34,305 nt of DNA from Nitrospira sp. GTDB lineage: Bacteria; Nitrospirota; Nitrospiria; Nitrospirales; Nitrospiraceae. The position numbers and the translations under genes are program-made. The first letter of the stretch is position 1, and each line of letters opens with the position of its first letter. Below are positions 3,758-31,935 of the stretch, in pieces. The notes under the pieces are model-generated. The model was not told the origin of the DNA. It did not search any database and saw only the letters and a program-made list of their open reading frames with translations. The stretch spans positions 1 through 34,305 of the forward strand of contig JADYYH010000085.1 in assembly GCA_020853775.1 (NCBI GenBank), in the 5' to 3' direction.

Positions 3758-4477
3758 GTGGATGCCGTGAACACTTACACGGCGGAAGTGAACCGCATTC
3801 AGGATTTGACGCATGACGTGCGAGCGATCGAGCTGCGCCTGCTGGATCCACCGACGATGAGCTTTAAGGCCGGCCAGTTTGTCTCGTTCGAGGTGCCGAA
3901 GGAGGGACAGCCACGGCCCGTGACGAGGCCCTATTCCATTGCCTCGCCGCCGGAGCAGCAGGATCGGATCCTCCTTGTTCTCAATCTCGTTCAGGGCGGA
4001 CCCGGTTCGAGCTACTTGTTTAGTTTGCGCGAAGGGGAGCGAACGTCATGTAAGGGGCCGGCTGGCGCGTTTTACCTCCGGGACGACGGGACGAAAGATC
4101 TGCTGTTCGTGGCGACGGGAACCGGCATCGCGCCCATGCGGAGCATGATTCTGACGCAATTGCAACGACAGCCGGACCGGCCGGTCACGTTGTTTTGGGG
4201 ATTGCGCAGTCAACGGGATCTCTACTGGCAGGATGAACTGGCCATGCTGGTCGCCGCCCATCCCCGGTTGACTGTGGTGACGACGTTGTCCCGGCCTGAG
4301 CCGGGGTGGCAGGGCGCGAGCGGGCGCGTGACAGCCTTGGTGGAGGAACGGATCGCTTCCGTGAGAAATCTCGCCGTCTATCTCTGCGGCGGGAGCGGCA
4401 TGATCAAGGATGTGACAGCCCGGATCAACGCCAAGGGGTTGTGTCCGATCTATCGCGAGAAGTACTACGACGAATGA
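3758..4477 (+). CDS. Ferredoxin-NAD(P)H reductase-like flavoprotein
   Basis: This 239-residue protein has the two-domain FNR fold. RPYSIAS at residues 57-63 is the FAD-binding motif of the beta-barrel domain. GTGIAPM from residue 121 is the NAD(P)-binding motif, and CGGSGM near residue 211 is the conserved C-terminal Cys-Gly segment. It ends in a Tyr-rich tail (YREKYYDE). Such proteins move electrons between NAD(P)H and ferredoxin, flavodoxin or an oxygenase partner. No iron-sulfur domain is fused and no obvious partner is adjacent, so the acceptor is unknown. The start is GTG 3758 or GTG 3767; neither has a strong ribosome site. The stop is followed one base later by an inverted-repeat element. 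Confidence 0.9.
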   Translation: MDAVNTYTAEVNRIQDLTHDVRAIELRLLDPPTMSFKAGQFVSFEVPKEGQPRPVTRPYSIASPPEQQDRILLVLNLVQGGPGSSYLFSLREGERTSCKGPAGAFYLRDDGTKDLLFVATGTGIAPMRSMILTQLQRQPDRPVTLFWGLRSQRDLYWQDELAMLVAAHPRLTVVTTLSRPEPGWQGASGRVTALVEERIASVRNLAVYLCGGSGMIKDVTARINAKGLCPIYREKYYDE

Positions 4478-4478
4478 C

Positions 4479-4599
4479 GGCCGATGAAAGAGGTCGCCAG
4501 CGGCGTTCTCTGTCGCATGCCTCCCTGCGACGTACCCAGAGGGTACGCCTCAGTCGTCAGGCTCCTTGTGGCCTTGCTGGACGACCCCTTTGATCGGCC
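4479..4599 (+). repeat. Dispersed inverted-repeat element, copy A
   Basis: This 121-base element starts one base after the stop of the flavoprotein gene. The left arm (from 4479, GGCCGATGAAAGAGGTCG) pairs with the right arm (4576-4599, complement GGCCGATCAAAGGGGTCG) over about 22 of 24 positions. An inner perfect hairpin CGTACCC-aga-GGGTACG sits in the middle. The order of blocks is left arm, CGTTCTC, inner hairpin, GCCTC, GGCCTTGCTGGA, right arm. The same order occurs at 31810-31935. It may be a MITE-like element or a structured 3'-end RNA. Confidence 0.75.
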
Positions 4600-4612
4600 T
4601 GGTTGTTGGCGC

Positions 4613-4675
4613 GCTGAAAGAGGCCGCCGGCATCGTTCCCGGTCGCACGACGTCCCGTGATGTACGACCCTCGAC
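4613..4675 (+). repeat. Truncated tandem copy of the same repeat (A2)
   Basis: GCTGAAAGAGGCCGCCGGC from 4613 resembles the left arm of copy A. It is followed by a GTTCCCGGTCGCA block (copy A has GTTCTCTGTCGCA) and a decayed inner-hairpin region GACGTCCCGTGATGTACG. No right arm is recognisable. It reads as a second, partial copy next to copy A. Confidence 0.45.
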
Positions 4676-5526: not shown

Positions 5527-5871
5527 ATGACTCACTCACAACCCAAAACGGTACGAGCCTTCTTTGCCACGCTTCCCGGTAAGTTGGATCCTGAAGCGGC
5601 CGAGGACCTGGATGTCGTCTATCAGTTCGATCTGAACGGGGCCGACGGCGGACAGTACCAACTCCAGATTCGAGACGGAGCCTGCCAGGTGTCCGAAGGG
5701 ATGCATCCGGACCCGAATGTCACGCTCGCGATGTCGGGTGAAGATTGTCTGCGAGTACTGAATGGTCAGGTCAGTGGCACCATGATCGCTATGACCGGCC
5801 GTCTCCGCATCAGCGGTGATATGGGGTTAGCGCTTCAGCTGGCGTCCCTCTTCCCCAGTCTCCGTCCTTAA
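5527..5871 (+). CDS. SCP2 sterol-binding domain protein
   Basis: This 114-residue protein consists of a single SCP2-like domain. The pattern is a short helix (VRAFFATLPGKLDPE), a strand VVYQFDLNG, GGQYQLQI, then DPNVTLAMSGEDCLRVLNGQ and a final helix after GRLRISGDMGLALQL. Family members bind hydrophobic ligands such as lipids in a tunnel; bacterial members are often of unknown ligand. It has no signal peptide, so it is cytosolic. It lies 51 bases after the SpeD-like gene on the same strand and is probably co-transcribed. The intervening hairpins may control its translation. The gene converges on the RND operon. Confidence 0.88.
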   Translation: MTHSQPKTVRAFFATLPGKLDPEAAEDLDVVYQFDLNGADGGQYQLQIRDGACQVSEGMHPDPNVTLAMSGEDCLRVLNGQVSGTMIAMTGRLRISGDMGLALQLASLFPSLRP

Positions 5872-6040
5872 GAATCTGTCCGAGTCATGCCATTCTGCTG
5901 CGGCAAATGAGCTGCCGGCATCTGCATCGTTCTCGGCGCGAAAAATCCTCAACGTATTCCAGTGATTACGCCTCCGGTTTTTTGCGCCTGCGGCCTCGCA
6001 TCTACCATCAGCTCCTGTGCCTCGCAACGAAGGATGACTC

Positions 6041-6064
6041 GGACAGACTCTTGGCAGTCTGTTC
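6041..6064. terminator. Hairpin between convergent genes
   Basis: ACAGACT (6043-6049) and AGTCTGT (6056-6062) are perfect arms around a 6-base loop, extended by one G-U and one G-C pair. It lies between the convergent SCP2 and RND genes and could end transcription from both sides. There is no clear U-tract. The remainder of 5872-6140 holds no gene that I can support. Confidence 0.45.
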
Positions 6065-31310: not shown

Positions 31311-31808
31311 GTGGCTGACCAATCATCATTCGATGTGGTGTCGGAAGTGAATATGCAGGAGATGAAGAATGTCGTCGATCAGGCGACGAAGGAGATCAAG
31401 CAGCGATTTGATTTCAAGGACTCGAAGACCGAGTTGACCTTGAAGGAGAAGGAGAAAGAACTCGTCGTGCTCTCCGACGATGAGTACAAACTCAACGCCG
31501 TTATTGAAATCATCAAGAGCAAGTGTGTGAAGCGCGGCGTGTCCTTGAAGGCCTTCGATTACGGCAAGATCGAGGAGGCGCTTGGGGCCACCGTGCGGCA
31601 AACCATTAAAATTCAAAGCGGGATCTCTTCGGAAAAGGCGAAGGACATTACCAAGGCCGTCAAAGAGTCCAAATTGAAGGTGCAGGCGCAGATCCAGGGG
31701 GAACAGGTGCGAGTGATCAGCAAGAGTAAGGACGATCTGCAGTCCGCGATTGCCTTTCTCAAAGGGAAAGATTTTGGGATTGATTTGCAGTTCACCAACT
31801 ACCGCTAG
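31311..31808 (+). CDS. yajQ: YajQ-family nucleotide (c-di-GMP) binding protein
   Basis: This 165-residue protein matches YajQ (UPF0234) along its full length: [32 protein letters not shown] at the start, [17 protein letters not shown] in the middle and [20 protein letters not shown] at the end. The fold is two tandem ferredoxin-like domains. Homologues bind c-di-GMP in Xanthomonas and were first noted for binding nucleic acids or nucleotides. GTG 31311 has GGAGG at 31301-31305. Its stop is followed one base later by repeat copy B. A second c-di-GMP-type protein (PilZ) lies 2 kb away. Confidence 0.96.
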
Positions 31809-31809
31809 T

Positions 31810-31935
31810 CCCGGATGCTGAAACGGGTCCCCAACTTCGTTCTCGGTTGATCGGTTGCTTCAACGTGCCGATAACGCACGCCTCGGCCACCGATCTTCCT
31901 GCGGCCTTGCTGGATGGCCCGTTTGAGCATCCGGG
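31810..31935 (+). repeat. Dispersed inverted-repeat element, copy B
   Basis: This 126-base element starts one base after the YajQ stop. CCCGGATGCTGAAACGGGTC (31810-31829) pairs with the right end (31916-31935, complement CCCGGATGCTCAAACGGGCC) at 18 of 20 positions. Inside are CGTTCTC, an inner stem CGTGC/GCACG, GCCTCGG and TGCGGCCTTGCTGGA, in the same order and orientation as in copy A. It ends about 22 bases before the next gene start. Confidence 0.75.

Follow-up and report, generated by a model that had tools for sequence, protein, structure and literature searches.

Results

Two hairpins behind stop codons

The window analysed here, the whole stretch of 34,305 nucleotides of a Nitrospira contig (JADYYH010000085.1, assembly GCA_020853775.1), contains two copies of a hairpin-forming repeat, A and B, each located downstream of a protein-coding gene (Table 1). 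Copy A follows the gene of a flavin-reductase-like protein, referred to here as gene A, and copy B follows yajQ. Both copies had been reported in a sequence-only reading of the window, and their coordinates and sequences were confirmed. The covariance model described below matched positions 4475-4602 with 111.7 bits and positions 31809-31935 with 116.4 bits, and the RNA folds of A and B showed z-scores of -5.5 and -6.0, respectively, with none of the shuffled sequences folding as well in either case. The orthologs of gene A were roughly full length across the genus, and YajQ was complete up to its conserved C-terminus. The yajQ stop codon together with the preceding C forms CTAG, a target sequence of the type discussed below.

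Two further features are related to these copies. Copy A is followed by the remains of a second, tandem copy, which was found intact in the orthologous locus L308 (2348-2475, 91 bits). The window also holds a palindrome of a second, related family of MITE-like elements, whose inner hairpin core is that of A and B; it contains an inverted repeat of 19 nt (95%) and was matched by the covariance model at 5897-6025 with 40 bits. The Rfam search of the window gave no family at the gathering threshold.

Table 1. Hairpin copies, related repeats and adjacent genes in the window
Feature	Position	Strand	Remarks
Gene upstream of copy A, flavin/NAD(P)H oxidoreductase-like, 239 aa	3758..4477	+	PF00175 and PF00970
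Stop codon TGA upstream of copy A	4475..4477	+	one C between the stop and the arm start at 4479
Copy A, hairpin domain	4479..4599	+	old MITE copy, right third lost
Degenerate 5' half of second, tandem copy	4609..4665	+	similarity by eye
Palindrome of second, related MITE-like family	5870..6052	+	ends AAGAATCTGTCCGAGTCAT/ATGACTCGGACAGACTCTT
Gene upstream of copy B, yajQ (DUF520), 165 aa	31311..31808	+	NF003819, 211 bits; PF04461, 1-161/161
yajQ stop codon TAG	31806..31808	+	one T between the stop and the arm start of copy B at 31810
Copy B, hairpin domain	31810..31935	+	old MITE copy, right third lost

A widespread hairpin family with covarying arms

The covariance model was built on 19 aligned copies from the own genome. 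In this alignment, 25 of the 41 pairs changed on both sides, and the covariation score was reached by none of 500 shuffles, which confirmed the covariation of the arms noticed between A and B. Searching with the model, as had been suggested, revealed further copies in the own genome (83-95 matches, corresponding to about 85 copies) and in its relatives. The family was present in all the 29 genus genomes searched, with 37-109 copies in 28 of them and two in the complete genome G004. The latter genome gave no match to the terminal repeat or to the partner transposase described below, and neither of its conserved sites, behind yajQ and behind gene A, carried the element. In the phylum sample, 111 of 246 genomes had matches to the model, and nearly all the matches in a pattern scan of named genomes were Nitrospira/Nitrospirota records, with N. 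moscoviensis and N. defluvii among them. One pattern scan gave five hits in viral contigs, and the consensus was unmatched in plasmid records. Further copies, covariation and non-random placement were all found, the opposite of the outcomes that the sequence-only reading had named as grounds for abandoning its proposal.

The core GGCCTTGCTGGA occurred 37 times in the own genome, in some cases within ordinary genes. A G.G mismatch in the outer stem was invariant in the alignment (19/19 copies), and was kept in 67/81 own copies, in 166/185 in another count and in 51/74 copies from other families. The end boxes of integron attC sites (RYYYAAC...GTTRRRY) were absent by inspection, the hairpin ends being CAGGATGC...GCATCCTG and variants. 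Tandem clusters with at least three hairpins within a few kilobases were observed at four loci (L158, L254, L191 and L100). Longer versions also occurred, three of 271-346 bp in the complete genome G001 (L387, L388 and L389) and two with hairpin matches of approximately 190 nt in the own genome (L265 and L259), all with a further hairpin (GACGCGC...GCGCGTC) inside the core.

The hairpin as part of a transposable unit

The sequence-only reading had considered the hairpin by itself, and overlooked approximately 75 nt to its right, where well-preserved copies carry a second terminal inverted repeat and a target duplication. This 3' flank of about 75 nt is common to many copies and terminates with TTTTTCCGCAGCCTGCTAG, which repeats the left end CTAGCAGG.TGC.GAAAAA in inverted orientation. 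The full element is approximately 200 bp in length with terminal inverted repeats CAGGMTGCKGAAAAA, and consists of the left terminal repeat CAGG(A/C)TGC(T/G)GAAAAA, the 127-nt imperfect palindrome with the conserved core, about 60 nt of further sequence and the right terminal repeat. The 127-nt hairpin makes up its left two thirds. The right end has been lost in most copies, A and B included. The conserved G.G mismatch is the base at which the inner arm departs from the true terminal repeat, and we speculate that it may stop the inner arm from acting as an end.

The target duplication was a 4-bp NTAR, mostly CTAG or CTAA. Identical 4-mers (including ATAG/ATAG, TTAG/TTAG and CTAA/CTAA) flanked 14 of the 24 copies whose right end was well preserved; the expectation from shuffling was 5.9, and a number this high was not reached in any of 10,000 shuffles. 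The genome G001 carried fifteen full-length copies of 205 bp (the TAR at both ends being counted), some of them near-identical, with the ends CAGGATGCGGAAAAA...TTTTTCCGCAGCCTG and no coding capacity. Empty sites were also identified. The locus L116 was matched by L168, which has a single CTAG, with 93.8% identity across approximately 500 nt; L227 was matched by L140, where a single GTAG stands at the end of the aligned reading frame (TAG stop) and the upstream differences fall at third positions; and L096 and L118 formed a third pair. The full-length copies therefore have the inverted repeats, target duplications, empty sites and dispersed copies of a MITE. The proposal of a MITE-like element with preferred target sites, one of two left standing side by side in the sequence-only reading, was borne out by these features and by the autonomous element described next, which shares the ends.

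An autonomous element of the IS5 type

The probable autonomous partner was a 1316-bp element in G001 (L386/L406), flanked by a TTAG/TTAG duplication, with ends of 19 nt that are 95% complementary. It encodes a transposase of 342 amino acids, assigned to the IS5 family by NCBIfam (279 bits against a cut-off of 140) and matching Pfam DUF772/DDE_Tnp_1. Further autonomous elements were found (L407, L408 and L418); in the set including L386/L406, the NF033581 scores were 279-286 bits where scanned, and similar elements in other genomes were flanked by duplications of CTAG, ATAG, TTAG or CTAA. The own genome carried one such element, of which one end was visible before the contig edge. Of three longer inverted pairs considered as autonomous elements (L203, L226 and L231), L203 and L226 were discarded because their open reading frames resemble genes of the host. 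IS5 itself duplicates YTAR (PMC10359306). The partner transposase was matched in only 12 of the 29 genus genomes, though MITE copies were present in all of them, and the partnership therefore rests on the shared ends and target rather than on co-occurrence. These shared features point to the IS5-type transposase as the probable agent moving the MITE in trans.

Placement and orientation at stop codons

In 50 of the 78 own copies, and in 38 of 87 from other Nitrospira, no more than 8 nt separated the left end of the element from the stop of a same-strand coding ORF; the corresponding figures were 1.0% for random positions and 3 of 174 for the other end of the hairpin. Adjacency to stop codons is hence general in the family. 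The stricter rule that the element begins exactly one base after the stop holds for A and B and fails as a general one, the offset varying by a few bases; in the commonest arrangement, a TAG or TAA stop overlaps the first two model positions of the element. The stops adjacent to elements were TAG in 56 cases, TAA in 20 and TGA in 12, whereas the usage in all genes was 37% TGA, 36% TAA and 27% TAG, indicating depletion of TGA and enrichment of TAG near the elements (p=2e-5 and 9e-10, respectively).

The main cause of this stop adjacency is the target duplication of the transposon. TAG and TAA stops are NTAR sites, and their duplication keeps the gene whole, which accounts for the stop-codon rule. 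Stop switching can explain the occurrence of TGA beside old copies: the orthologous copies behind one and the same gene, gene A, follow TGA, TAG or TAA. The stop adjacency is weakened as a proof of RNA function by the NTAR duplication and the depletion of TGA. Another idea, that the element supplies the stop by truncating genes, was rejected because YajQ is complete to its C-terminus and the empty site L140 has the same stop.

Of 80 full-length copies, 39 had a stop codon at one of their ends, the hairpin end in 27 cases and the other end in 12 (p=0.02), whereas about 6% (4-10% by tetramer) of the available non-coding NTAR sites are at stops, a rough estimate as the simple gene caller used for the intergenic regions misses genes. 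This difference requires selection against other sites or additional targeting. Among the short copies, 103 had the hairpin end at a stop, and no more than 31 were candidates for the reverse orientation; the orientation tally that had been called for thus gave a mostly sense placement. The direction of this bias in old copies is certain and its size uncertain: 96 versus 2 in the first count was an overestimate, and 103 versus at most 31 is the cautious range.

Retention of the hairpin after orthologous genes

Of 26 genomes, 22 had the hairpin after yajQ, and the figure for gene A was about 22 of 27 genomes. Its identity among the orthologous loci was higher than that at the third codon positions of the adjacent gene (0.77 versus 0.68 for yajQ and 0.81 versus 0.48 for gene A), and in the 30 nt downstream of the hairpins the identity was 0.59 and 0.53, near random (0.47-0.48 when shuffled). 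The arms of orthologous copies differ and still pair, as in GATGCTGAAACGGG/CCCGTTTGAGCATC and GATGGTGAAACAGG/CCTGTTTGACCATC, and the score for double changes was above those of all 300 shuffles in both ortholog sets. The selection for pairing that the sequence-only reading had postulated is supported by this maintenance of pairing in changing arms and by the higher conservation of the hairpins than of third codon positions and spacer. Gene conversion between copies could account for part of the higher conservation.

Individual loci showed other changes. Two copies after gene A (L324 and L330) carried complementary inserts in both hairpin arms, suggesting template switching across the palindrome. 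In the genome G020, the first 19 nt or so of the element after yajQ (L302) were followed by an unrelated palindrome, GTATGGCACCCGTGA...TCACGGGTGCCATAC.

Related hairpins beyond the family

Other families of Nitrospirota had the same core between arms of different, locus-specific self-complementary sequence. These hairpins followed stops in 15 of 22 cases in G151 and in 5 of 5 in G040 (control, 5%), and in fewer cases in G207, G146 and G045. In the more distant Nitrospirota, TGA was as frequent as TAG or TAA at the adjacent stops, a pattern which the NTAR duplication leaves unexplained. Within Nitrospira, the second MITE-like family combines the same core with AGGAGCCTGTCCGACATTG-type ends (copies L268, L272 and L170). 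The occurrence of the core in other Nitrospirota and in this second family indicates that its origin either predates the IS5-type ends or is unconnected with them. It is possible, though we hold it doubtful, that the core represents an old 3'-end element common to the whole phylum Nitrospirota, which is placed right behind stop codons, maintains its pairing as the arms drift, and was captured by two or more transposon families that differ in their ends. If so, transposition would keep supplying genes with a working 3'-end structure.

Discussion

The findings are very probably accounted for as a whole by an NTAR-targeting MITE that is moved by an IS5-type transposase, lands at stop codons, and leaves a hairpin which is then kept or domesticated. 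The element of about 200 bp would be mobilised in trans by the IS5-family transposase of an autonomous element whose ends it shares, and the insertion would duplicate the NTAR, mostly CTAG or CTAA. When the NTAR contains the TAG or TAA stop of a gene, the stop would be duplicated, leaving the protein unchanged and the element starting right after the stop. Insertions at stops would be safe and hence over-represented. Most copies would subsequently lose the right third, and the hairpin, mostly in the sense direction relative to the stop, would be long kept with compensatory changes. Its domestication as a structure at gene 3' ends is the likeliest reading of this retention, one that we favour with restrained confidence, and the hairpin may in this way have some effect on mRNA ends. 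Such an element would represent a near-harmless route for a transposon, in which a stop within the duplicated target restores the gene and structured DNA is delivered to its 3' end. As each genome offers dozens of natural replicates, with recent insertions, older ones that have been retained, and empty sites, the step from a selfish element to a 3'-end structure of the host can be followed and tested in this family, and the host genus, comprising nitrite oxidisers and complete ammonia oxidisers, is ecologically important.

We consider it rather unlikely that the hairpin is itself the original RNA element (a terminator, a stability element or a ribosome-linked 3' UTR structure, comparable to the REPs found near stop codons in E. 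coli), the transposon ends being a late addition in Nitrospira. The hairpins of other Nitrospirota, which share the core, have their own self-complementary arms and follow stops including TGA, agree with this, as do the second MITE-like family with the same core and different ends and the orthologous retention exceeding that of third codon positions. However, the specific roles at RNA 3' ends put forward in the sequence-only reading found no support. A scan restricted to loops of 3-8 nt detected no intrinsic terminator (GC stem and T run) at A or B, and the U-run was unconserved in old copies (GTTTG in the yajQ copies). An RNA helix maintained by selection accepts G-U pairs much more readily than A-C pairs, and in the outer arms G-U was not favoured over A-C, with 111 versus 160 cases in the model columns, a count open to a register-shift artefact. 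The excess of A-C persisted in the alignment-free count (50 versus 139 in Nitrospira and 7 versus 45 in other families), which disfavours a constraint acting on RNA only. As the copies are related by ancestry and the family counts are not independent, these numbers were used only against the RNA-only reading. It is unlikely, too, that the hairpins are neutral remnants of a selfish element, whose arms match owing to template-switch correction of the palindrome rather than selection. In favour of such a process, most changes in the arms replace one Watson-Crick pair by another, G-U intermediates being few, and L324 and L330 carry complementary inserts. Against it stand the conservation of the unpaired core, the persistence of the G.G mismatch in own and other-family copies, and the higher conservation of the hairpins than of third codon positions.

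The remaining alternatives concern the way of insertion. Transcription or translation might steer insertions to the 3' ends of genes, beyond the NTAR preference and selection against gene damage, which would produce the large excess of stops among the full-length copies (about half) over the available sites, but purifying selection against insertions in promoters could yield the same excess, the intergenic estimate being rough, and we regard such steering as quite unlikely. A system of the REP/RAYT type, in which hairpins are mobilised by a Y1 (IS200-like) transposase, shares with the present family the extragenic palindromes, a mismatch conserved in the stem and, on the 5' side of the hairpin, a TAG-like tag. 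Nevertheless, 10 of the 29 genus genomes lacked a Y1 transposase, among them several with 60-99 copies, its presence was uncorrelated with the copy number, and the full-length copies are bounded by terminal inverted repeats and flanked by 4-bp duplications; a Y1 partner is contradicted for the Nitrospira family, and we give this system hardly any credence.

An earlier description of the preferred candidate, the IS5-type MITE, in Nitrospira was not found in the open-access literature. Mycobacterial MIRUs are repeats that overlap the stop codons of upstream genes, as does the present element, and differ from it in sequence and size; we know of no terminal-repeat/IS5 system for them. The ERIC sequences of enterobacteria are imperfect palindromes. 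By description, the 127-bp ERIC / RU-1 repeats are intergenic and MITE-like (PMC2759123), resembling the Nitrospira element in these respects and in size. They belong to another host group, and the mobile unit in Nitrospira is longer than the hairpin, with its partner and target duplication identified. Known MITEs mobilised by IS5-family elements are likewise short and non-coding, with terminal inverted repeats in common with the autonomous element and 4-bp duplications of the NTAR type. In contrast to these, the Nitrospira element has a 127-nt subterminal palindrome, the core of which is conserved and kept after loss of the right end, and is strongly placed at stop codons; a review of prokaryotic MITEs mentions neither stop codons nor Nitrospira (PMC10969869). 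The REPs of E. coli are also palindromes right after stops, although they are short and tied to Y1 transposases, which are uncorrelated in the Nitrospira family. E. coli REPs within 15 nt of stop codons are reported to stall ribosomes (as cited in PMC12306157).
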